Positions 24,269 through 38,285 of a DNA stretch of 64,000 nt are shown here, one piece after another. Each line of letters opens with the position of its first letter. Position 1 is the first letter of the stretch. The position numbers and the translations under genes were made by a program. The notes beneath the pieces are model-generated. The model was not told the origin of the DNA and searched no databases. It saw only the letters and a list, made by a program, of their open reading frames with translations. Origin of the DNA: Bacillota bacterium (GTDB lineage: Bacteria > Bacillota > Dehalobacteriia > UBA4068 > UBA4997); assembly GCA_021771915.1 (NCBI GenBank), contig JAETNY010000004.1, positions 1 through 64,000 on the forward strand, written 5' to 3'.

Positions 24269-25291
24269 ATGGAGATAATGGAATGGGTTTTTGAAAATCT
24301 AAATTACAAGAACAAGTCAGGTAAGATAGCCATATTTGTATTATATGTAATATACTTTTTCAATTTACTATTTATGGTTTTAACTCAACAAAAGATGGAT
24401 TATGGTACATTTTTGGTACAGTTATTTTTTTTAATAATTATAACTATATGGATTTATATGGCACCTTATTTTTATAATGATATTTTAAGTTTGAAGAGTT
24501 TATTTACAAATAATGATGAATATAATAGTGAATATAACAAAATGAAAAATAAAATTTATCTATTTAAATTTAAGGACAACAGTTCTATTTGCAAAATAAT
24601 AAAGCTAGTTTACATTATAATTGGAATTGTTATTCTATTATATGAACTTTATTATTTTTATATATATTATGAATGTCAATTAAATTTTAATAATTTTTTT
24701 GCGATTGTTTTAGTGGTAGTGTCATTTTTGTTAAATTTTTCAAGTTATTATTTAAGTTTAGAATTAACTTATCTTATAAGGAATATTTCCAAATTAAGCA
24801 ATTTAAAATATAACATATTTATTCCATCTAGCACATATGAATTTGTAAAATTGAAAAAGAATGTTGATAATGCTTCAATCGTTTTTCTTATTATTGTTGT
24901 CCTTTATAATCTTTCTTATATAACTTTATTAATTGCTAGGACTAACCAAAACAATACATTAGAAATTTTATCTGCTTTATGCTTTCTAATATTTAGTATA
25001 TTTAGTTGTTTTTATGCTACGGTATTACCAAAATATTACCTTTATCAGCTTTTTTTTAATTGGAAAGAATTATCATTAAAGAAGTTTCAAGAAAAACTTT
25101 ATAATACAATGGAGAATAAAAGCTCTTATAAGCAAATTGAAAAAATAGTAAGAAAAATCAATCGATTGAATAATGATAAAGTAGAATTTGGCTTAGTAAG
25201 TAAATTTGGAACAATAGTTGGTTTAAGTACAATAATATATAATTTTATACAAATTTCTTCTTTGATAAAAGAAACGATAAATGGGTGGTGA
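24269..25291 (+). CDS. AT-rich multi-spanning membrane protein of unknown function
   Basis: 340 residues from ATG 24,269 (aaggag nine bases before; ATG 24,263 is too close to it). I see about six membrane segments in the first 270 residues and a last hydrophobic stretch at the C terminus, with a charged helical part (about 275-315) between. Two 60-base lines that I counted have 17% and 22% G+C, against 48% in a line of the relaxase gene; Asn, Ile, Tyr and Lys are abundant. It splits the usual mobC-relaxase pair and overlaps the relaxase start by 11 bases. I recognise no family. Exclusion, defence or toxin-immunity roles fit such a place, without direct evidence. Confidence 0.7.
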   Translation: MEIMEWVFENLNYKNKSGKIAIFVLYVIYFFNLLFMVLTQQKMDYGTFLVQLFFLIIITIWIYMAPYFYNDILSLKSLFTNNDEYNSEYNKMKNKIYLFKFKDNSSICKIIKLVYIIIGIVILLYELYYFYIYYECQLNFNNFFAIVLVVVSFLLNFSSYYLSLELTYLIRNISKLSNLKYNIFIPSSTYEFVKLKKNVDNASIVFLIIVVLYNLSYITLLIARTNQNNTLEILSALCFLIFSIFSCFYATVLPKYYLYQLFFNWKELSLKKFQEKLYNTMENKSSYKQIEKIVRKINRLNNDKVEFGLVSKFGTIVGLSTIIYNFIQISSLIKETINGW

Positions 25292-26699
25292 TGTATATAC
25301 GGCAACGACAAGGTTTATTCCCCTGCACACAGGCAAAGGCCGTAAAGCTGGTAAAGCCATAAGTGAAATTATTGATTATGTGGAAAACCCGGAAAAGACG
25401 GATAACGGCAAACTTATCAGCAGCTATGAGTGCGACAGCCGAATTGCCGACGCTGAATTTGCTCTATCCCAAAGAATTTACCAAACCAAAAGCGGCAGGG
25501 AACAAAAAGAAAACGACGTTATAGCCTACCAGATAAGGCAGTCCTTTAAGCCGGGCGAGATAACCCCGGAGGAAGCCAACCGACTGGGCTATGAATTAGG
25601 AATGCGCTTTACCAAAGGACAACACGCCTTTATTGTCTGCACGCATATTGACCGCTGCCATATTCATAACCATATAATCTTTTGTTCTGCCAGTTTGGAC
25701 TGCACAAAAAAGTTTACTAATTTTTGGAACAGCGGTAAAGCAATACGCAGATTAAGCGATATTATTTGTATCGAGAATGGCTATTCGGTTATTGAGGAAC
25801 CAAAACGCCGCCGGGGTTTAAGTTACAACCGCTGGCAGGAGCAGCAGGGAATTGAAAATAAGACCTCGCATAGAGATATACTGCGGCAGGCCATAGATAA
25901 GGCTCTATCTCAAAAGCCCAAAGATTTTGACAAGCTGCTGAAGCTGTTGCAAACAGATAATATTGAGGTTAATAAGCGAGGCAAAAACTGGCGTTTGAAA
26001 GCGGCAGACTGGCAGCAGTTTGTCAGGTTAGACAGCCTGGGCGCTGGCTATGCCGAGGCTGAATTAGCAGCGGTTTTGGCTACCGGCCAAGCGATTAAAC
26101 CAAAGGAAAAAATAAATCTGCTGGTAGATATTCAGCGGAAATTGGCCGAGGGTAAAGGCGGCGCTTATTCCCGTTGGGCCAGCGTATTCAACTTAAAGCA
26201 GATGGCAAAAACATACAACTATCTGAATGAAAATAACCTGCTCAGCTATGAGGAATTGGCTGTTAAAACTGCGGCGGCCAGCGAGCGTTACAATGAGTTA
26301 TCCGGTCTGATCAAGATTGCGGAAAAACGAATGGCGGAGATTGCCGTCTTGAAAACGCATATTATCAATTACGCTAAAACCAGGGAAGTATATGTGGCGT
26401 ATCGCCAGGCCGGCTATTCCAAAAAGTTTGCCTCCGAACACGAAAGCGCCTTGCTGCTGCATAAGGCGGCGAAGCAGTTTTTTGACGAGGCCGGTTTGAA
26501 AAAGCTGCCCACTGTTAAAAGCTTGCAGGCCGAATATTCCCGGCTGCTAACGGATAAGAAAGCGGCTTATGGAGAATACCGGCAGGCCAGAGAGGAAATG
26601 AAAGAGCTTTTAACAGTTAAGGCCAATGTGGATAGTTTGCTGGAGATAGACGCAAACAAAGAAAAAATAAATCAGCGAGAGCCGGAGGCAAATCGTTGA
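25281..26699 (+). CDS. Relaxase / mobilization endonuclease (HUH type)
   Basis: 472 residues. The N-terminal relaxase domain has the metal-binding HUH motif HIDRCHIHNH at residues 122-131 and the family start (RFIPLHTGKGR, IIDYVENPEKT). It nicks oriT and is carried covalently on the transferred strand. The C-terminal half is helical and charged. The only in-frame ATG (25,281) overlaps the stop of the upstream AT-rich gene, and it lacks a clean ribosome site of its own, so translation is probably coupled. The conserved block begins six residues later, which suggests that the original start was changed by the insertion. Confidence 0.9.
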   Translation: MGGDVYTATTRFIPLHTGKGRKAGKAISEIIDYVENPEKTDNGKLISSYECDSRIADAEFALSQRIYQTKSGREQKENDVIAYQIRQSFKPGEITPEEANRLGYELGMRFTKGQHAFIVCTHIDRCHIHNHIIFCSASLDCTKKFTNFWNSGKAIRRLSDIICIENGYSVIEEPKRRRGLSYNRWQEQQGIENKTSHRDILRQAIDKALSQKPKDFDKLLKLLQTDNIEVNKRGKNWRLKAADWQQFVRLDSLGAGYAEAELAAVLATGQAIKPKEKINLLVDIQRKLAEGKGGAYSRWASVFNLKQMAKTYNYLNENNLLSYEELAVKTAAASERYNELSGLIKIAEKRMAEIAVLKTHIINYAKTREVYVAYRQAGYSKKFASEHESALLLHKAAKQFFDEAGLKKLPTVKSLQAEYSRLLTDKKAAYGEYRQAREEMKELLTVKANVDSLLEIDANKEKINQREPEANR

Positions 26700-26938: not shown

Positions 26939-27985
26939 CTAGTTACGATGTTTGAGTTTGGGAAGATATTGACTGCGCTCCTGCTGTGGACTATTGAGAG
27001 CGTCCATAGCCTTTTCAGCGGATAAGCTTAATGTAGTGATTAAGCTTTGAATGTTTGCCAGCCTTTCTGCAAATCTACCTTTTTCAATGCCTTTTTCAAT
27101 ACCTTTTTCAATACCAATATCAATACCTTTAGCAATACCCTTATCTTCTATTGCCTGACTAAGATTACACATAATTTCAAACTCTCCTTTCATTTCTTTG
27201 CTCATAATAACGCCAAATTTCTCCTGTAAAATTCTTTCTCGTTCTTCACTTTCTATTTCGGTGGAAAGAATAACTTCCAGTAATTCTAAAATACCCTCAT
27301 GATTTTTATCTTCCCTGCGGCCAAGCCCAATTATGAAAACTGACAGCAAATCATAATGAGCCGGATCTTCTTTAGCGCTGCCAACCAGATTTTTCTCAGC
27401 TATATAATACTGATTTATTGTATTACGGCGTTCCTTTGTGGGATTTTTACAAACCCAAATAGATACCACTTTCTTTATCTGTTCATAATGTGATTTAGTA
27501 AATTCTCTGTTATATTGAGCTGAAATCATACGGCAGCAATAGAACAGACCACGCTTAGTCAAAGGATAACCGGGGTTCCATTGTGATTGAGCCTCCACAT
27601 TCACAATCAATCTGGTTAAGCCATCTCTTTTAGGAGCTGTTGCATAGAAACGAATATCGTATACAATAGTTCCCTCTTTGGCCAAAGTATCTTCATTGGC
27701 TGCGCCGTTGATGAGAATATTCTCATCGGGCAATACTGGCGTTGTGCTTATCTCCGGCTCGCCCTCAATATATTTTTCGGCAATATCATTTACATTACAA
27801 TCTTTATATTCTTCCATACAGCCTTTCATTATCCAAGCCAGAAAGATTTTGATAGATAATATTCTTTTGCAGGAAGAGTCAAAAAGAGTTTTCTGGTTAT
27901 CTTTAGTTCTGCTGTTTTCTGCGTTATGGATATTCTGTTCCGTTGCAGTACGGATAATTTGAGCGATGGGCGTTTCAGTCTTCAT
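26939..27985 (-). CDS. Rpn-type PD-(D/E)XK nuclease / recombination-promoting transposase family protein
   Basis: 348 residues, convergent to the relaxase. The nuclease core shows VYDIRFYA then LIVNVEAQSQW, the Asp...Glu-x-Gln pattern of the Rpn/PD-(D/E)XK family transposases, and the C-terminal region has the tandem GIEKGIEKG motif typical of these proteins. Related Rpn proteins are DNA endonucleases that stimulate RecA-independent recombination; some paralogues have been linked to phage defence. No inverted repeats mark it as an autonomous transposon. Ribosome site aaggagtag precedes the ATG on the minus strand. It is the first cargo gene after the transfer module. Confidence 0.8.
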   Translation of the reverse strand: MKTETPIAQIIRTATEQNIHNAENSRTKDNQKTLFDSSCKRILSIKIFLAWIMKGCMEEYKDCNVNDIAEKYIEGEPEISTTPVLPDENILINGAANEDTLAKEGTIVYDIRFYATAPKRDGLTRLIVNVEAQSQWNPGYPLTKRGLFYCCRMISAQYNREFTKSHYEQIKKVVSIWVCKNPTKERRNTINQYYIAEKNLVGSAKEDPAHYDLLSVFIIGLGRREDKNHEGILELLEVILSTEIESEERERILQEKFGVIMSKEMKGEFEIMCNLSQAIEDKGIAKGIDIGIEKGIEKGIEKGRFAERLANIQSLITTLSLSAEKAMDALNSPQQERSQYLPKLKHRN

Positions 27986-28231: not shown

Positions 28232-28573
28232 ATGAAGTATAAATTGGATGAAGAGCTTAAACAAATATTGATTAGTAATATTGTGTTTTTCCGTGAAAAA
28301 ATTGGTATAACTCAATATGAGTTAGCCGATATGATAGGCATTACACAACCGTATATGGCGCAAATTAAAAGCGGCGAAAAGGAAATGAGCATAACTGTTT
28401 TTAATAAGTTATCTAACGCTTTGGGCGTATCAATGAATTCCTTGTTTAGCACTAATAGAAATGATGTCTGCATAAAAAATATTAACGCAATGTTGGCTGG
28501 TCAAACAAAAGAAAATTTAGAATCAATGGAAAGAATGACCAGATTTTATCTGAAAGAATTAGAAAGAAAATAA
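28232..28573 (+). CDS. XRE-family transcriptional regulator
   Basis: 113 residues with an N-terminal helix-turn-helix of the Cro/C1 type (ITQYELADMIGITQPYMAQI, about residues 30-49) and a short helical C-terminal tail. Ribosome site aacaggtgattt precedes ATG 28,232. The 246 bases upstream are AT-rich and hold no gene; a tataat hexamer lies at about 28,172. It may repress the neighbouring cargo, but no operator repeat was found. Confidence 0.8.
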   Translation: MKYKLDEELKQILISNIVFFREKIGITQYELADMIGITQPYMAQIKSGEKEMSITVFNKLSNALGVSMNSLFSTNRNDVCIKNINAMLAGQTKENLESMERMTRFYLKELERK

Positions 28574-28599: not shown

Positions 28600-28628
28600 T
28601 TGGCAAAGCAAAGAAAACGTGATAAAAT
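28600..28628 (+). promoter_or_regulatory. Sigma-A-like promoter of the ECF sigma gene
   Basis: ttggca (28,600-28,605), a 17-base spacer and taaaat (28,623-28,628) form a good housekeeping promoter 56 bases before the sigma start. The sigma gene itself therefore does not appear to need the element proposed as the ECF promoter, which lies after it. Confidence 0.6.
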
Positions 28629-28683: not shown

Positions 28684-29220
28684 ATGAAAGAATTGGAGCC
28701 AGAAAAGAAAAAATTTGTTGATAAATTATATAGAGAGCAGTATACATCTCTTTTAGATTATGCTAAAATATTTTTAGATGAGTCCAGTGCAGAGGAAGCT
28801 GTGCAAGATGTTTTTCGGGATGCTTGCGTAAAAATAGATAGTATTATGGCCAGTGAAAATCCAATAGGCTGGTTGGTTAACGCATTAAAGTTTTCTATCG
28901 GTAAAATTAAGCGAAAAAAAGAACAATATGCCAGAACGATAGTTTTAATGCCAGTATATCTTGACAGCGATGATAATGTGGAAACTAGTATTGAGGATAT
29001 TCCTGATACTAATCCGCCAGATGAAGATGTTGATTTTTTGTATTCTGATTTATCAGTACATAAAGAGTTTCAGTTAATGAAGCAATATGCTGTTGAAGAT
29101 AAATCCATTAAAGAGATAGCAGATGAGCAAGGTATAAGCATAAATGCCTGCAAACAGAAACTTTATAGGTGTAGATTGAAACTTAAAAAATTATGGGACA
29201 AACAAAATGAAAAAACTTAA
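28684..29220 (+). CDS. ECF-type RNA polymerase sigma factor
   Basis: 178 residues. Region 2 (YTSLLDYAKIFLDESSAEEAVQDVF, about 19-43) and region 4 (SIKEIADEQGISINACKQKLYR, about 139-160) are typical of extracytoplasmic-function sigma factors, which respond to envelope stress through an anti-sigma factor. The next gene encodes a single-span membrane protein with a cytosolic N terminus, the expected partner. Between the two lies the first of three copies of a 43-bp two-part motif, the proposed target promoter. Confidence 0.85.
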   Translation: MKELEPEKKKFVDKLYREQYTSLLDYAKIFLDESSAEEAVQDVFRDACVKIDSIMASENPIGWLVNALKFSIGKIKRKKEQYARTIVLMPVYLDSDDNVETSIEDIPDTNPPDEDVDFLYSDLSVHKEFQLMKQYAVEDKSIKEIADEQGISINACKQKLYRCRLKLKKLWDKQNEKT

Positions 29221-29226
29221 AAAATA

Positions 29227-29269
29227 GCGTTACCTTTTCCATTTGTGATGGTGTATATATAATAGAGGG
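29227..29269 (+). promoter_or_regulatory. Proposed ECF promoter, copy 1
   Basis: GCGTTACCTTTT, 12 variable bases, then GTGTATATATAATAGAGGG. The same two blocks with the same spacing recur at 30,755 and 32,873. It lies 12 bases before the anti-sigma gene, and its AGAGGGGAGG end also supplies the ribosome site, so the transcript would start with almost no leader. The two-part form and its place after the sigma gene suggest recognition by that sigma factor; this is inference. Confidence 0.65.
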
Positions 29270-29281
29270 GAGGTTTAGATT

Positions 29282-30166
29282 ATGTCAAAGGTCGAAGATA
29301 AAGGGCGTCAAAATTCAAAATACGATAAATTCGACAAGCTTGATACGGCTACTTTAGAGGCGATTCTGCGAGCTGATTTTGGCGCCCCAGAGGCTGAACA
29401 GCTGGCAGCGGAAGAAGTTTTGTATATTGCCAGTCTGGTTGCAGAACGTCGGAAATTTTCAAGGCCAGATATTGATAAAGCGCAGGAAGAATTTTATCAA
29501 TATTATTATCCGTTGGATAGGCCGATATATGATTTTGGTGATGAAGAAGATGATTCTCAAAACAAAATTCAAACCGAAACGACGCAATATAAAAATGACA
29601 AGAAGGTGCTGCCGTTTTATAAAAAGGCTTGGCGCAAATTTGCCAGTGTAGCCGCTGTTTTGGTTTTATTTATGTTTGTCGGTACTGTTACGGCATATGC
29701 CTTGGGATATAATCCTTTTCCGGTCAGGCCGGTATGGGATGAAGAACATTTTTGGTTTGAGAAAGATGTGCCAACCTTTGAAATGTTGCAAGCTGTATCA
29801 AAATATGAAAATATAGATAATTTGATTCCCCAATGGCTACCTAATGGCTATAAATTTGAAAAGATAGAAACATCTGAAAATGATTCAAGGATCAGTCTTA
29901 CTTCAAGCTATTATAAAGAAACAGAAAATAATACGGAAGTAATAAGTATTAGTTGTTTATATCTTAATGATTATAAAAATACTCTTTATGAAAAAGACGC
30001 ATATGATGTTATTACTTATCCAGTGCATAATACAGATTATTACATTATGACAGATAAAGAATATTTAACAGTTGCCTGGAACAGCGGTAACACTGAATAT
30101 TATATTACCGGCGAAATATCTGTCGACGATGCTAAAAAGATGATTGATTCTATTTATGATGATTAG
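29282..30166 (+). CDS. Membrane anti-sigma factor with DUF4367-like outer domain
   Basis: 294 residues: a cytosolic charged N-terminal part (1-118), one membrane segment (about 120-142, SVAAVLVLFMFVGTV) and an outer domain whose IPQWLPNGYKFEKIE motif is that of DUF4367, common in clostridial anti-sigma factors. It directly follows the ECF sigma gene and has a gggaggttt ribosome site. It should hold the sigma factor at the membrane until an envelope signal releases it. The N-terminal zinc-finger type of anti-sigma domain is not visible. Confidence 0.8.
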   Translation: MSKVEDKGRQNSKYDKFDKLDTATLEAILRADFGAPEAEQLAAEEVLYIASLVAERRKFSRPDIDKAQEEFYQYYYPLDRPIYDFGDEEDDSQNKIQTETTQYKNDKKVLPFYKKAWRKFASVAAVLVLFMFVGTVTAYALGYNPFPVRPVWDEEHFWFEKDVPTFEMLQAVSKYENIDNLIPQWLPNGYKFEKIETSENDSRISLTSSYYKETENNTEVISISCLYLNDYKNTLYEKDAYDVITYPVHNTDYYIMTDKEYLTVAWNSGNTEYYITGEISVDDAKKMIDSIYDD

Positions 30167-30177
30167 GAGTGAAAAAA

Positions 30178-30606
30178 ATGCGTAAAAAAATTGCCTTGTT
30201 GGCGTTGCTTTTATTTACTGTTTTTGGTATGGCAACAGTTGCTAATGCTGCTATTTATTCCAGTGATTACATAGCAGTTGCCCAATCTGATATTACTGCG
30301 AAACGTGATGGAAGTTTGGATATTAATTTTTCCATAAACGGTCGTAATGTGATGGAGCAGCTGGGCGTAAAAACTATTATTTTGCAGGAAAGAGCTAACT
30401 CAAACCAAAGCTGGAGCGAGGTTGAAACATTTACTTATGGTGATTATCCTAATATGATGGGTTATAAGACAAATTATCACGAATCTAAAGTAACTTATTA
30501 TAATGCAATATCTGGATATGAATATCGTGCAAAGGTATATTTTTATGCAGAAAATGGTGGTTATGATTCCCGTGAGTATATTACAGTAGCCGTTAGAGCA
30601 AAATAG
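30178..30606 (+). CDS. Small exported protein of the sigma regulon
   Basis: 142 residues from ATG 30,178 (taggag site). A clear signal peptide ends at NANAA (about residue 25). The mature part is Tyr-rich and probably all beta-strand, similar in feel to single fibronectin/Ig-like domains; I recognise no family. It lies 11 bases after the anti-sigma gene and is the last gene of the operon before a terminator, so it would be co-expressed with the regulator. Confidence 0.7.
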   Translation: MRKKIALLALLLFTVFGMATVANAAIYSSDYIAVAQSDITAKRDGSLDINFSINGRNVMEQLGVKTIILQERANSNQSWSEVETFTYGDYPNMMGYKTNYHESKVTYYNAISGYEYRAKVYFYAENGGYDSREYITVAVRAK

Positions 30607-30622
30607 TAAAAATTTAAGAATT

Positions 30623-30665
30623 AAAATGCTTTGTAAGTTTGTATTCAGCTTGCAAAGCATTTTTA
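30623..30665 (+). terminator. Terminator after the sigma/anti-sigma operon
   Basis: aaaatgctttg and caaagcatttt pair perfectly over 11 positions, with partial pairing continuing inward, followed by T residues. Confidence 0.8.
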
Positions 30666-30754
30666 CTATGTAAAGGTTGTTATTATTTTGTTAGAAATTT
30701 GCTGTTAATACTTTGAAATGAAGTATAGAAAAATTTTTGAAAAAATAAAAATAT

Positions 30755-30797
30755 GCGTTACCTTTTGGGGTTTTCGTGGTGTATATATAATAGAGGG
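30755..30797 (+). promoter_or_regulatory. Proposed ECF promoter, copy 2
   Basis: GCGTTACCTTTT, 12 bases, GTGTATATATAATAGAGGG, identical in both blocks to copy 1. The preceding AAAAATAAAAAT and the following GGTAAAA stretch are also shared with copy 3, so copies 2 and 3 share more than the promoter. It would drive the lipoprotein gene at 31,085 through a leader of about 290 bases. Confidence 0.65.
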
Positions 30798-31084
30798 TAA
30801 AAATTACAAACAAATTATCGAAAACTAAACTGGACAAGTTTATACAGGAGAAAGGAGGATAGATTGTTTAGTTGTGGAGGGCCACTCTGTGTGGCGATTT
30901 AGTAAAAAAAGAAAATTGCTTGTAATTATACTTCCTCAAAAGAATAATACGGGATAGATGAGATATTTATGTTTTGAATAATTGGGAAAGAAAGTGAAGC
31001 CAATGGATAATTAAACTATATATTTTGGAGTTAGAGTTGTTGAAAAGTCTGTCATATTAAAGATTCAGGAGGAAATTAACAGCT
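30798..31084 (+). other. Long leader of the lipoprotein gene with a possible 12-codon peptide
   Basis: No large gene lies here. The sequence has a strong ribosome site (aaaggagg) followed by a TTG and a 12-codon frame (MFSCGGPLCVAI) near 30,865-30,903. Parts of the leader (gaggatag and later a cttctcaaaa-like stretch) resemble the leader after promoter copy 3. It may be a regulatory leader; the peptide is not proven. Confidence 0.35.
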
Positions 31085-31924
31085 ATGCTTAAAAAAACTG
31101 TAGCATTACTTCTTTTAGTGTTAATTCAATTTGCCGTTTGTGCTTGTGCGGATAATAATACAGTTGCTAATACAGATGATAATACTGAAAGCAATAACCA
31201 ACCAACCTTTACCTGTGAGTTAGATAGAGAGCAGGCAGAATTGGTACTGACCTATGCGGACGGTCATACCGTTCGGTTTCCCATGACTGATAAGTTATTT
31301 TTAGGTGGTTGGGATAATGAGGAGTATGACTATGTAGCCCATGGTTTAAGTTGGGCTGTTTACGAGGATATCTCTGCAGTATTTATTCCGGCTTCTTTTA
31401 TGTTATCAGATAGAGACAGTGTTTTGGAGATTAGCCGGGATGCAGGCGAAACCTGGCAGGAGATGACGGTTCCGGCAGACAAGCATGATATTACTAAAAG
31501 TGTTATCGGTTTTACCTCACAAGATAATATTTGGTTACTGTTAGAAGGTGAATTGGGGGCAACTCAAGCCTGTTTGCGTTTTTATAAGTCCGAAGATGGT
31601 GGTAATACCTGGACGTATGAAGAGCTTGGGAAGCCGGTTATCGGAGGACAATTGGATTATATTGATTTTTTGTCTGAAGACGAGGGCTATCTTTCGGTTG
31701 CCGCCGGCATATTTGGGTCTGCTCCATTACTGTATAAGACGATTGACGGCGGTCAATCGTGGATTGAATGTACGGTAGAAACCAAGATAAAAGAAGGCGA
31801 TTATTTTCGCATTGTCAATATTCGTTATAATGACAATATTCTTATAATGTATGGTCATCTGGCACATAATGGCGGTGAAATTACCCTGACTTCTGAAGAT
31901 GGGCTGACTTGGATTCAACAATAA
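31085..31924 (+). CDS. Exported lipoprotein with Asp-box (BNR) repeats
   Basis: 279 residues. A lipoprotein signal ends near residue 21 (FAVCAC). Four Asp-box motifs (SRDAGETW, SEDGGNTW, TIDGGQSW, TSEDGLTW) indicate a beta-propeller like those of sialidase/YCF48-type proteins. Asp boxes are structural, and no sialidase catalytic residues are evident, so binding or assembly is as likely as enzymatic action. The ribosome site is aggagg. It lies behind promoter copy 2 with the DUF1906 gene following. Confidence 0.7.
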   Translation: MLKKTVALLLLVLIQFAVCACADNNTVANTDDNTESNNQPTFTCELDREQAELVLTYADGHTVRFPMTDKLFLGGWDNEEYDYVAHGLSWAVYEDISAVFIPASFMLSDRDSVLEISRDAGETWQEMTVPADKHDITKSVIGFTSQDNIWLLLEGELGATQACLRFYKSEDGGNTWTYEELGKPVIGGQLDYIDFLSEDEGYLSVAAGIFGSAPLLYKTIDGGQSWIECTVETKIKEGDYFRIVNIRYNDNILIMYGHLAHNGGEITLTSEDGLTWIQQ

Positions 31925-32003
31925 ATTGCTGTGATAGTTAATTATAAAACAATATCAAATTTTATTTAACTTTACGTTTTAAAAAATATGAGGAGTGATT
32001 ATT

Positions 32004-32651
32004 ATGACAAAAGGTTTGGATACTGTTCGTCAGCTTAGTCAAAGCATGCTTAATGCGGTACCTGCAGATCGTGAATTTATTGGTCGCTATTATAGTAGAG
32101 AAAAACCGGAAAAAAGGCTAACTGTTGCTGAAGCCGAGCGCATTTGCGATTCTGGGCATTCTATTTTCAGTATATATCAAGATGCTAATAATTACGCATC
32201 AGCATTTCACACTGAAAATGGTCTCTATGATGCTGATTATGCCTGGAAATATGCCCAATCTGTTGGACAACCCACCAATACTCCCATTTATTTTGCAGTT
32301 GATTTTGATGTAGATGATCCTGCTCCCGGTGAAACCAAAAAGGATACCCTAAAGCGAATATACGATTATTTTAAAGCAATACAAGGCCAATTTGCTATTT
32401 GGAATAACAAAGGCGCCCTTAATTACAAAATTGGCGTATATGGTTGCGGCGAAATATGCCAGTATATAAAACAAGATTGTGGACTCGCAACCTACTCTTT
32501 CTTGGCAAGATCCAAAGGTTGGTCGGGATATGATGATTATAATTATCCGTCAAAGTACAATCTCAAGCAGATTGCTCTAGTTTCTTATGGCGGTGTGGAT
32601 TTTGATACTGTTGAGAGCGGTAATGGTAGTTTCGGCAGTTGGAGAGTATAA
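32004..32651 (+). CDS. DUF1906 / Rv2525c-like glycoside-hydrolase-fold protein
   Basis: 215 residues from ATG 32,004 (gaggagtgat site). The whole protein matches the DUF1906 pattern: TKGLDTV start, EFIGRYY, YFAVDFDVDD and the C-terminal VDFDTVESG. The fold is a TIM barrel related to GH25 lysozymes, with acidic residues in FAVDFDVD at the pocket; wall or glycan binding/cleavage is possible. No signal peptide is visible, unlike its neighbours, so export is unexplained. Probably in one transcript with the Asp-box lipoprotein gene. Confidence 0.75.
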   Translation: MTKGLDTVRQLSQSMLNAVPADREFIGRYYSREKPEKRLTVAEAERICDSGHSIFSIYQDANNYASAFHTENGLYDADYAWKYAQSVGQPTNTPIYFAVDFDVDDPAPGETKKDTLKRIYDYFKAIQGQFAIWNNKGALNYKIGVYGCGEICQYIKQDCGLATYSFLARSKGWSGYDDYNYPSKYNLKQIALVSYGGVDFDTVESGNGSFGSWRV

Positions 32652-32752
32652 TAATAAAGAATATGTTATAGATAAGTATAACAATTATTCTTCAATTTTG
32701 TAGCCAAGTTGTAAAAATTATATTTATAAAATGAGCTGTAAAAGCAGCTTCT

Positions 32753-32796
32753 AAAAAGGCTTGGTATGTCGTATAAAGGCAGACCGAGCCTTTTTG
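32753..32796 (+). terminator. Terminator after the DUF1906 gene
   Basis: aaaaaggcttggt pairs with accgagccttttt (one mismatch or wobble) across a short loop, ending in T residues. Confidence 0.8.
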
Positions 32797-32872
32797 TATA
32801 AAAGAGTAAAGAAATTGCCAAACAAGGTAGCAAATGCTCTGATGTATTTTTTTTGAAAAAAATAAAAATTTT

Positions 32873-32915
32873 GCGTTACCTTTTGGGGTTTTAGTGGTGT
32901 ATATATTATAGAGGG
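32873..32915 (+). promoter_or_regulatory. Proposed ECF promoter, copy 3
   Basis: GCGTTACCTTTT, 12 bases, GTGTATATATTATAGAGGG; one base differs from copies 1 and 2 in the second block. It precedes the exported-protein gene at 33,072 with a leader of about 155 bases that carries a gggaggatag ribosome-site-like sequence without an obvious gene. Confidence 0.65.
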
Positions 32916-33071
32916 TAAAATTTACCAATAATTTGCTGAAAACGGTAAGCTTTTCATGTGCGGATTGAAAATTTATAGCCAGAGGGAGGATAGAGGTCGT
33001 TTAACCGTTATGAATGGTGAATTGATTGGAGTTTGCTTCTCAAAAAAATAATTATGAAAGAGGTAACTAAA

Positions 33072-33971
33072 ATGAAAAAATTCAGATTGTTGGGTTTGAT
33101 TTTAACACTTTGTATGTGCTTTGCGATTGCAATGCCGGCGCTGGCGGTTGATATTGCGGATAATTCTAACGAGCAAATTCCATATAGAATGGAGCCGAGT
33201 ACAGTTGTTTTATATGATTCGGATTGCAAAATGTTTGTAATAAATGATGGGGCTGATGCTCCCAAGCGTATGTATTCAAGAACTGCTAATCCGGCTAATG
33301 AATCTGTTGCGGGTATTGCAGAAGAAGAAGAAATAGTGGCTCAAATTCTGGAAGAATCTAAAAATTTATCTGATATTTATATGCCACATAATGATACTGT
33401 CAGACCTAATACTATGGTAATTTATGGCACAGATGGATATATAAATCACATTTATCCTATTACAGAAGAATACCTGAAAACGTATGCGTCAAGAAACTAT
33501 CAAACAATAGATGCAGTAACTGAATTAGGAGCTAATATAGAATATGGTGTAATGACGCTTGATGATATCTATGTTGATGATTCTGTGTATCCTCCATTAA
33601 AACGAGGGAAACGTTTGGCTCCAAATAATTACATTATTGACGATAATAATAGTATTCGTATAACATCGAGTTATGTTATGGGTACTGGAAGATTGACCAC
33701 TTTCAATGATCCTATAGGTGAAAACGGTGACAGTTATCCCAATAAGGCTGGTGATTGTGCTACAAGAAGAAATATAGATAATGCACCATTTCACCAAACT
33801 ATCCATGTACGTAATTTAGATAATAACATTGAAAAATATATGCGCAAAAATGATAATGGTGATTTAGACTATGCCGTGTTAGACATTTTTAAGTGGGATG
33901 GAATCCTTATGGGAGAAAAATATTCTTCTACTTTCACATTTGAAAATGGTAGATACTACTATGAATTCTAA
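33072..33971 (+). CDS. Exported protein of unknown function
   Basis: 299 residues from ATG 33,072 (aaagaggt site; the longer frame from 33,033 is unlikely). The signal peptide ends at PALAVD (about residue 25). The mature part contains no repeat or motif that I recognise; Asp/Asn-rich turns suggest a beta-rich fold. It lies behind promoter copy 3 and its stop overlaps the next start by one base, so the two products probably act together. Confidence 0.7.
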   Translation: MKKFRLLGLILTLCMCFAIAMPALAVDIADNSNEQIPYRMEPSTVVLYDSDCKMFVINDGADAPKRMYSRTANPANESVAGIAEEEEIVAQILEESKNLSDIYMPHNDTVRPNTMVIYGTDGYINHIYPITEEYLKTYASRNYQTIDAVTELGANIEYGVMTLDDIYVDDSVYPPLKRGKRLAPNNYIIDDNNSIRITSSYVMGTGRLTTFNDPIGENGDSYPNKAGDCATRRNIDNAPFHQTIHVRNLDNNIEKYMRKNDNGDLDYAVLDIFKWDGILMGEKYSSTFTFENGRYYYEF

Positions 33972-34984
33972 TGATAATATTGCAACGAAAAAGATATTTT
34001 GCTTTACTTTTATTAAGCATATGCATATTAGTATGTGTGTTAATATATTTTTCTAATCAGAATAAAGTTGTTTATAAAGAATACATCTCCATTACAGAAA
34101 CATATCAAAATAATAATGATGAGCTGATAACCAAATTGTCTGTATTCTTTCCTGATACAAAAGAAAGTGAAAATGTATTTGAGTTCCCTTATACTGCCCA
34201 GTATCCTTTGGGTGTTGTAGATTTAGCCGGTAATATGGTATATTTTTCTGCTGATGTTGATGGTGTTGGCGACCAAATATTTTCTTATAATTTAAGAACT
34301 AAGGAAACTGAACAACTAACTGATAATTTGTTTGCTATAAATTACATTATCCCAACCAGACATACTGTTTATTTTGCTGCCTGCAAATCAGGTACATCTA
34401 ATGTGTGTCTAGGTGCATATGATAAACAGACTGGTGAAATAAAATATTGGGGCGATGATAAAGATACAAATATTGAAGATATTTGTATCGATGAAGCAAA
34501 TAAGAAAATATACTTAATATCATATTCGGAAAAAGAAGATCGTTATAATTTACAACATCAGGATAATGGTTTTACCATTGCTAAGCATAGGGTAGTAGAA
34601 TTAGATTTTGATTTGCAAACAAGTAGAGAATTGTGCAGTATGGATAATGAATGGATTAGAATGCTTGTATTAAACAATTATAAACTATTAATTATATTTG
34701 ACCATCAATACAATAATTCTATTGTTCCGTCAGAAGCAATTTATTATGATTTACTGGATAATTCTCAAAATTCATTTTCTCTGCCACCGTACAGAATGCA
34801 GCAAGGTGGAGCTGCTTTCGCCGAAAATGGAGATATAATATATGTTACATCACAACTAGAAAACGGCGGTAAAAGAAATATTTACAGTTACAATCTGAAA
34901 ACACAAGAGTATGTTTTATTATATGAGGCTCCAGAATTAGGCAAAGGTTTTATTAATAACTGGCAACTCATAAGTGAAGAATAG
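33971..34984 (+). CDS. Membrane-anchored beta-propeller-like protein
   Basis: 337 residues. The N terminus has one hydrophobic anchor (about 8-27, FALLLLSICILVCVLIYF). The rest shows repeats such as MVYFSADVDGVGDQIFSYNL, TVYFAACK and YVTSQLENGGKRNIYSYNL, reminiscent of TolB/DUF5050-type propeller blades. Start and upstream stop overlap (TAATG), giving translational coupling. Probably an extracellular sensor or binding protein; no enzyme motif is visible. Confidence 0.65.
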   Translation: MIILQRKRYFALLLLSICILVCVLIYFSNQNKVVYKEYISITETYQNNNDELITKLSVFFPDTKESENVFEFPYTAQYPLGVVDLAGNMVYFSADVDGVGDQIFSYNLRTKETEQLTDNLFAINYIIPTRHTVYFAACKSGTSNVCLGAYDKQTGEIKYWGDDKDTNIEDICIDEANKKIYLISYSEKEDRYNLQHQDNGFTIAKHRVVELDFDLQTSRELCSMDNEWIRMLVLNNYKLLIIFDHQYNNSIVPSEAIYYDLLDNSQNSFSLPPYRMQQGGAAFAENGDIIYVTSQLENGGKRNIYSYNLKTQEYVLLYEAPELGKGFINNWQLISEE

Positions 34985-35495: not shown

Positions 35496-35981
35496 ATGTA
35501 TAACAAAAAGAGCGATTATGCTTTAAATAAAAAGAATAAAGAAGCCATTGTGAGCAGAAATGCTGCCGGCGAATTTATTAAGTTGACTAAAGAAGAGTTT
35601 GCCAGCGAGGAAGAATTTGCTCACTGGAAAGAATGGTCGGATAATGAATACCGTCAGGAATATAACTCTGAACAGAGTTATAAACGCCTAAAAAATAAGT
35701 TGCAAAAGCAGGCGGAAAATGAAGCCGGTTCTTTATCTGTTGAGCAGCTTTTGTTAAATGATTTAGCTGATGAGGAAAGAAAAGCTTTGGTAAACAAAAT
35801 TAAATCTATTTTGACCGAAAAACAGTTTCGGCGTATATGGTTCTATTATGTCGATGGTATTTCTATGACAGAAATTGCCAAGCTAGATAATGTTTCCAAA
35901 GTAAGTATTCATTATTCCATTGAAGCAGCAAAAAAGAAAATTATTAAAAAGTTTTCTAAACTGCTTAATAAACAGCTATAA
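35496..35981 (+). CDS. Sigma-70 region 4-like ICE regulator
   Basis: 161 residues. The C-terminal part (LTEKQFRRIWFYYVDGISMTEIA...VSKVSIHYSIEAAKKKI) is a sigma region-4 helix-turn-helix; region 2 is absent, so it is not a complete sigma factor. Small sigma-like proteins of this kind are regular regulators upstream of the recombinase in clostridial conjugative elements. Ribosome site taaggaga precedes the ATG. It probably controls excision or transfer genes. Confidence 0.75.
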   Translation: MYNKKSDYALNKKNKEAIVSRNAAGEFIKLTKEEFASEEEFAHWKEWSDNEYRQEYNSEQSYKRLKNKLQKQAENEAGSLSVEQLLLNDLADEERKALVNKIKSILTEKQFRRIWFYYVDGISMTEIAKLDNVSKVSIHYSIEAAKKKIIKKFSKLLNKQL

Positions 35982-36731: not shown

Positions 36732-38285
36732 ATGAAAGCAGCTATTTACTGTCGTTTATCTGAAGAGGATAAAAACAAGCAATTTGCAACTGATGACAGC
36801 AACAGTATTCAGAACCAAAAATCAATGTTACTGCAATATGCGATGGAACAGGGGTGGGATATTTATAATATTTACAGTGATGATGATTATGCTGGTGCAG
36901 ATAGAAAACGTCCGGAGTTTAATAAACTTTTGTCTGATGCAGAGCAGCATAAATTTGATGTAGTGCTTTGCAAAACCCAATCTCGCTTTACCAGAGAGCT
37001 GGAATTGGTGGAAAAATATATTCACGGTTTGTTTCCAATTTGGGGAATACGCTTTGTCAGTATCGTTGATAATGCGGATACGGCAAACAAAGGCAATAAA
37101 AAATCTCGTCAGATAAATGGTCTTGTTAATGAATGGTATCTTGAGGATATGTCCGAAAATATTCGCAGTGTTTTGGATAACCGGCGAGCTAATGGTTTTC
37201 ATATTGGTGCGTTTGCGCTTTACGGATATAAAAAGGATCCGGAACATAAAGGTCATTTAATCATTGATGATGAGGCTGCGGCTGTTGTTCGTGAGGTTTT
37301 TACTCTTTTTGCACAGGGTTATGGTAAAAATGCCATTGCCCGAATGTTGAACGATCGAGGTGTACCAAATCCAACAGAATATAAACGTCTGCAAGGTTTA
37401 CGCTATCAGCAGCCTAAAACCAAAAATAGCACTCTATGGAAATATTTTGCGATTGCTAATATGTTACGCAATGAAATCTACATAGGTAATATGGTGCAGG
37501 GTAAATATGGCAGTGTTTCTTATAAAACCAAACAGAACAAACCAAGACCAAAAAGTGAATGGTTTGTGGTTGAGAGAACACACGAGCCGATTATTGACCG
37601 GGAGCTTTGGGAAAGGGTGCAGTTATTACAGCAGCAAAGAGCCAAGCCTTTTATCGTTGGGCAAATTGGCTTGTTTGCCAAAAAAGCACGTTGCGCTAAC
37701 TGTGGCTATATTATGCGTTCTTCTAAAAGTCAGGGGAAATATTATTTGCAATGTCCGAACAGGCACGTTGCCAAAGATGCTTGCGAGGGTGCTTTTATTT
37801 CTGTTGACAGATTGGAGCAAATGGTTATTGATGAACTGAATCGTTTGGCGGCTGAATATCTTGATAAAGACGAATTGGCTATGAAGATTGAGTTTTGTAA
37901 TAACTTGCAAGAACAGAAAAAAACCTTGCTTGCAGATAAATCTGTTTATGAGAAAAAACTTACGGAATATACCAAAGGCATTCAAGATCTTTATATGGAC
38001 AAAGTTAAAGGCTTGATTAGCGATAGCGATTTTATTGTACTGTCAAAAAATATTTCTCAGGAAAAAGAAAGAATGCTGCAACTGGTGCAGGATGCACAAA
38101 ATCGAATAATTGCTATTGATAATAAAATTGCCGCCGGTGATAATCGGCGTGAGTTGATTGAGCAATATACTAATCTGGAGCATTTGGATAGAAACATTGT
38201 TGATACGCTGATAGACTACATCACTGTGGATAAGCGCATTCAAGGAACCCGAAATGTGCCTATTGAAATTCATTGGGCATTTTAG
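36732..38285 (+). CDS. Large serine recombinase (site-specific integrase of the element)
   Basis: 517 residues. The resolvase catalytic domain starts AAIYCRLSEED, with the nucleophilic Ser at residue 10, and has the conserved TQSRFTRE loop; the recombinase domain (GYKKDPEHKGHLIIDDE, IARMLNDRGVPNP) follows, then a zinc ribbon (CANCGY...CPNRHV...C, about 319-352) and a coiled coil (about 395-470). Enzymes of the TndX/TnpX type both integrate and excise elements without tyrosine chemistry. It reads towards the interrupted cotJC 200 bases away, which it most likely targeted. Ribosome site aaggaga precedes ATG 36,732. Confidence 0.93.
   Translation: MKAAIYCRLSEEDKNKQFATDDSNSIQNQKSMLLQYAMEQGWDIYNIYSDDDYAGADRKRPEFNKLLSDAEQHKFDVVLCKTQSRFTRELELVEKYIHGLFPIWGIRFVSIVDNADTANKGNKKSRQINGLVNEWYLEDMSENIRSVLDNRRANGFHIGAFALYGYKKDPEHKGHLIIDDEAAAVVREVFTLFAQGYGKNAIARMLNDRGVPNPTEYKRLQGLRYQQPKTKNSTLWKYFAIANMLRNEIYIGNMVQGKYGSVSYKTKQNKPRPKSEWFVVERTHEPIIDRELWERVQLLQQQRAKPFIVGQIGLFAKKARCANCGYIMRSSKSQGKYYLQCPNRHVAKDACEGAFISVDRLEQMVIDELNRLAAEYLDKDELAMKIEFCNNLQEQKKTLLADKSVYEKKLTEYTKGIQDLYMDKVKGLISDSDFIVLSKNISQEKERMLQLVQDAQNRIIAIDNKIAAGDNRRELIEQYTNLEHLDRNIVDTLIDYITVDKRIQGTRNVPIEIHWAF

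Follow-up and report, generated by a model that had tools for sequence, protein, structure and literature searches.

Which regulator reads three nearly identical sites, each placed before a cargo operon of an ICE-type mobile element, is the question raised by a stretch of 64,000 nucleotides (the window) from a gut bacterium of the genus Candidatus Avidehalobacter, whose genome (G000) is 98.6% complete and is distributed over 47 contigs. The assignment of the locus to an ICE, made in the first-pass annotation, is borne out: a relaxase, NikA/MobC, a TraG-like protein, a topoisomerase, a helicase, a CD1107-like protein and a large serine recombinase are encoded, with the relaxase (25281-26699) upstream and the serine recombinase (36732-38285) downstream of the cargo, and a GerA spore gene sits outside the element. 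Within it are also found the gene of a PDDEXK_2 (PD-(D/E)XK transposase family) protein (26939-27985, minus strand; Pfam score slightly below the cut-off) and that of a sigma-region-4/UPF0122-like ICE protein (35496-35981), which recurs beside several related modules (L126, L139) and is probably the element's own regulator.

A 43-bp pattern occurs on the plus strand at 29227-29269 and 30755-30797 with no mismatch and at 32873-32915 with a single one (TATATAATAG replaced by TATATTATAG), and is absent from 100 dinucleotide shuffles. The copies had been described as identical and exactly spaced; the spacing is the same in all three, but only two copies have identical blocks, a single base being different in the other. 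Each copy does precede a group of cargo genes (29282-30606, 31085-32651 and 33072-34984), and T-run-tailed stable hairpins lie between the operons, so that the three sites probably begin separate transcription units. The two long blocks are replaced by a functional parse common to all three copies, GTTAC-N16-GGTG-TATA. In predicted promoter 1, that of the anti-sigma operon (29229-29265, plus strand; register by analogy with PMC3397946), the -35 element GTTAC (29229-29233) is followed, after N16, by the -10 element GGTG (29250-29253) and TATA (29254-29257); the same pattern places candidate promoters 2 (30757-30793, ahead of a leader of ~288 nt) and 3 (32875-32911) on the same strand. Since the register of the Thermoanaerobacter RpoE1 promoter is that of the window sites, transcript 1 would start near 29263-29265, and the other two at the equivalent bases; the predicted leader of transcript 1, ~17-19 nt long, would carry the ribosome site GAGGGGAGG before the ATG at 29282.

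To judge from the comparisons described below, the three sites are very probably promoters read by RNA polymerase with the ECF sigma factor whose gene lies at 28684-29220 (plus strand, 178 aa). This protein scores 42.1 bits with TIGR02937 (cut-off 42.9) and above the cut-off with Sigma70_r4_2, and its profile aligns over the full length with SigL, SigH and SigW; sigma2 and sigma4 are its sole promoter-binding domains, as in the current definition of ECF (group IV) sigma factors (PMC8103513). Directly downstream, as also in the intact modules of the genus, lies the gene of its putative partner, a membrane anti-sigma factor (29282-30166, plus strand) with four helices predicted N-terminal to a single transmembrane helix, in the part where a cytoplasmic class I sigma-binding domain would lie, and an extracytoplasmic DUF4367 domain. 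In fold searches, which took in residues 163-293 only, the predicted DUF4367 domain resembled the C-terminal domain of RseB (Z 9.3 over 92 residues, 3.0 Å), a lead, and no proof, towards envelope sensing. The operon ends with a small exported protein (30178-30606), a conserved partner in these modules, for which generic FnIII/Ig-like beta-sandwiches alone were returned. The second operon encodes a putative lipoprotein with BNR/YCF48-like repeats (31085-31924) and an Rv2525c-like glycoside-hydrolase-like protein (32004-32651; PF08924, formerly DUF1906), and the third an exported protein whose signal peptide is like that of other modules' targets (33072-33971) and a membrane-anchored protein with no Pfam match (33971-34984), all on the plus strand.

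A circuit can thus be proposed, in which a separate promoter would supply the sigma factor and the membrane anti-sigma factor would hold it until an envelope signal, sensed by the outer DUF4367 domain of the anti-sigma protein, sets it free. Sigma4 would then read GTTAC (-34 to -30) and sigma2 GGTG (-13 to -10) followed by TATA; the free sigma factor would transcribe the genes of the anti-sigma factor and the small exported protein, in a self-limiting negative feedback, along with two more operons of surface or secreted proteins, and the module's own -35/-10 version would keep its regulon apart from those of paralogous modules.

Paralogous modules are numerous. Approximately eight sigma/DUF4367-anti-sigma modules are present in G000, where a protein search gave nine sigma matches, two being halves of one broken gene and one a truncated copy. 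The broken sigma gene (L126; contig C31, 52500-59644) now falls into two frames and has kept its sites, and the truncated one (L027; contig C3, 32111) lies next to an intact module. When the genome was scanned allowing three mismatches, the full window version was found at the three copies only, the two further matches each lying between a paralogous sigma gene and that of its DUF4367 anti-sigma factor; the -10 version GGTG was not found in G000 outside the window module. As the window version is not found elsewhere in G000, the regulon seems to be self-contained on the element. By protein search, relatives of the sigma factor are present in six of eight congeners, and the motif was not found where the sigma gene is missing, the remaining two (G001 and G008) having neither sigma nor site. 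G002 and G004 do have the sigma factor but gave no match to the genus-scan pattern, because their site versions, GTTACCAAA and GTAACCAAA, fall outside it; the reversed pattern, used as a control in the genus scan, gave zero matches. When 84,980 species genomes were scanned for exact matches, 15 stretches were found, of which four lie in sigma/anti-sigma modules and 11 had no related sigma gene within the flanking sequence retrieved, as chance predicts. Related sigma factors were found in 40 of 250 genomes of the family sample (G109), in 1 of 249 of the order sample (G233) and in 10 of 398 of the phylum sample, and a search of viral contigs with the window sigma factor gave no match. Several sister modules adjoin ICE-type genes, others lie in plain chromosome, and many members of the family are not on ICEs.

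In nearly every intact module of the genus and of other Clostridia, a site of the form GTNNC-N18-NRTA is found between the sigma and anti-sigma genes. Where the genus junctions, when read, have the site, it always consists of GTNNC (AAAAC in one), 18 nt and then a -10 element ending in TATA or similar. Among 56 non-redundant sigma/anti-sigma junctions, GTN[AC]C-N18-N[AG]TA occurs in 30, against 2.8 in shuffles (maximum 9), while spacings of N14-N17 and N19 give 1-3 and secondary peaks at N20-N24 stem from a TATATA run; with the fixed N18 rule, ~20 of the 56 junctions have no site, some of them showing N17 by eye and others none. The version of the site is specific for each module. The -35 block differs by 0.47 mismatches within modules and 3.08 between them, and the -10 block by 0.32 and 2.98, respectively, none of 5000 permutations being as good in either case, whereas matching of the spacer within modules is much weaker. 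Downstream targets carry the same version as their own module or a closely similar one, and in three cases such a site lies on a different contig from the module (G003 C26, G007 C37 and G000 C16:85334), as expected for a trans-acting regulator. In three modules (L125, L127 and L129), MacB-like ABC-transporter permeases take the place of the small exported proteins.

Which part of the sigma factor follows the version of the site was addressed by ranking 161 sigma columns, with no residues chosen beforehand, by their covariation with promoter bases. Base numbers are those used for SigW; in the work on Thermoanaerobacter, the positions of this -35 element carry numbers smaller by one in magnitude. 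Base -33 covaries best with Q158 (z 9.7) and Y161 (z 8.3), the next column being at 5.2. For the first variable -10 base the best column is K74 (z 11.4, against 4.0 for the next one), and K74 also comes first for the second variable -10 base. In all 20 cases of K at residue 158, base -33 is C, and in both cases of M it is G; with Q, it is T or A, and once C. The predicted DNA-contact residues of the window sigma factor are K74 in sigma2 and K157, Q158, Y161 and R162 in sigma4. A HMMER alignment to solved sigma factors places Q158 and Y161 at T171 and H174 of SigW (S172 and F175 of sigmaE), positions that touch -34 and -33/-32 in crystal structures (PMC6713349), and K74 at N92 of Mycobacterium tuberculosis (Mtb) SigH, which contacts the -11 pair (PMC6411747). 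Part of the covariation is due to phylogeny. When disjoint sister pairs were compared, a test that removes most of the shared ancestry, the link between K74 and the -10 element was the sole pairing to stay significant (p = 0.005), and that between residue 158 and base -33 was borderline (p = 0.07); a link between residue 157 and base -30, strong in the column ranking, was dropped as unsupported in sister pairs (p = 0.22). From these outcomes, recognition of the sites by the sigma factor is strongly supported by sequence covariation, and the detailed residue-base code should be taken as provisional. The earlier proposal of a single regulator, the adjacent ECF sigma factor, thus gains from the like placement of the site across Clostridia, from its module-specific versions and from their covariation with sigma residues.

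The most serious competitor, to which an appreciable though clearly smaller weight is given, is that several of the paralogous sigma factors of G000 read the sites, in a shared, cross-reacting network with no private regulon. The -35 sequence GTTACC is indeed common to three G000 modules (those of the window, C16 and C31), ECF sigma factors of Bacillus subtilis overlap (PMC3817407), and sister modules of similar version could cross-react. However, the window module is alone in G000 in having GGTG, and the residue covarying with the -10 element is K in the window, N in C16 and R in the broken sigma factor of C31. Far less probable is that the sites are sigma-A promoters under another regulator, which would bind GTTACCTTTT: TATAAT is present in copies 1 and 2, and TTTCCA-N16-TATAAT at 29236 matches the consensus at 10 of 12 bases, but TATAAT gives way to TATTAT, TATAGT or TATACA in other modules, the TATA part of the Thermoanaerobacter RpoE1 promoter is dispensable (PMC3397946), and the bases that vary between modules are those at the GTNAC and GGTG/GACA/TACG positions, tracking the sigma residues.

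Equally slight is the probability that the copies are alike only through duplication of promoter-leader-signal-peptide segments, their likeness being no sign of function. Leaders and signal peptides are alike across modules too, but the leader is 76-85% identical between modules while the promoter core has changed, and has done so in step with the sigma factor. This conserved leader follows promoter 3 (32911-33071, plus strand), with that identity in four other modules (L123, L132, L133 and L134), where ~155 nt are kept while promoter cores and mature exported proteins differ. It had no Rfam match and is possibly a structured RNA; it can be folded, but a conserved structure is not claimed, as both sides change in only three of 40 pairs (four sequences), and a small conserved peptide was dropped, since its reading frame differs between modules. 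A signal peptide of the type MKKxRLLGLILTLCMCFAIAMPAWA is shared by targets in the window (33072-33971) and in L123, L130, L132, L133, L134 and L138, the mature parts of which mostly have no detectable similarity to one another; that of the window protein has no recognizable relatives among other modules' targets. Least credible is a role of the sites as operators, bound by the XRE/Cro-cI protein (28232-28573) encoded upstream or by the sigma-region-4-like protein (35496-35981), since, although both genes are close by and in many modules sigma follows an XRE gene, no XRE gene of at least 110 aa lies directly before sigma in the site-bearing L124, L131, L132, L133 and L137, genes like the second adjoin few modules only, and neither protein explains the fixed -35/-10 geometry or the covariation with ECF sigma residues.

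With the adjacent sigma factor as the preferred reader of the sites, the control of its own gene can be considered. A separate, ordinary promoter had been suggested for it, and a possible sigma-A-type promoter, TTGGCA-N17-TAAAAT, is found by consensus match at 28600-28628 (plus strand); the suggestion is plausible, but the match is weak evidence because the AT-rich sequence here holds many of the kind (61 against 38 expected). No site of the module's own version was found upstream of sigma in the 37 modules checked; L017, outside this set, does have one. The feedback would therefore act on the anti-sigma gene only, i.e. as damping, the autoregulated gene predicted from site placement being that of the anti-sigma factor and not of sigma. 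The positive autoregulation counted as an early hallmark of ECF sigma factors is thus not seen in the window module; it is common in reported ECFs (~55%) but non-defining (PMC8103513). Such an arrangement suggests that ECF promoter searches limited to the region upstream of sigma would miss sites between sigma and anti-sigma genes.

A broader picture, offered tentatively and with some doubt, is that of a family of ECF modules, insulated from one another and in part borne by ICEs, with a constitutive sigma factor and feedback on the anti-sigma factor only, in which the -35 and -10 elements have changed in step with a few sigma residues, and a constant leader precedes the genes of secreted proteins that change fast, share a signal peptide and may serve in competition or host contact. 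If this is true, the family would be a natural collection for reading a sigma-promoter specificity code. With promoter versions differing among so many sister modules, the pairing of residues and bases is open to test by single exchanges (K74N, or Q158K with Y161V, in the window sigma factor). The window itself would offer a self-contained regulon travelling with a mobile element, with start signals predicted at base level, in an uncultured gut genus.

Comparison with known systems helps to place the module. The early hallmark of ECF promoters, AAC at -35 and CGT at -10, is replaced by GTTAC and GGTG in the window and by GTAAC and TACG in other modules; it is no longer defining (PMC8103513), and GTTAC is also found with RpoE1 of Thermoanaerobacter tengcongensis, a proven ECF sigma factor (PMC3397946). 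The promoter of the latter, tGTTAC-N16-CGTC-TATA, was mapped in vitro and its bases tested (PMC3397946), and all three window copies have the same succession of GTTAC, 16 nt, a tetramer at -13 to -10 and TATA, with GGTG in place of CGTC. The anti-sigma gene is just downstream in both systems, but the RpoE1 promoter lies upstream of the sigma gene, for positive autoregulation, unlike that of the window, and the outer part of the anti-sigma factor is of the TolB type (Tt-TolB) instead of DUF4367. SigW/RsiW of B. subtilis is alike in the sigma2-sigma4 make-up, in the contact positions of the recognition helix and in a TTT tract after the -35 element, and differs in the latter (GAAAC versus GTTAC) and in the outer part of RsiW. 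SigW also autoregulates itself, which is not predicted for the window sigma factor. With RpoE/RseA/RseB of Escherichia coli the module would share the logic of envelope sensing and, in predicted fold only, the likeness of DUF4367 to the C-terminal domain of RseB, which is a separate protein in E. coli, whereas the RseB-like domain of the window is fused to the anti-sigma factor. The ECF sigma/anti-sigma module is, therefore, already known as a kind; it varies here in the position of the autoregulated promoter, in having a range of diverged promoter versions within one genus and in being carried on a mobile element.
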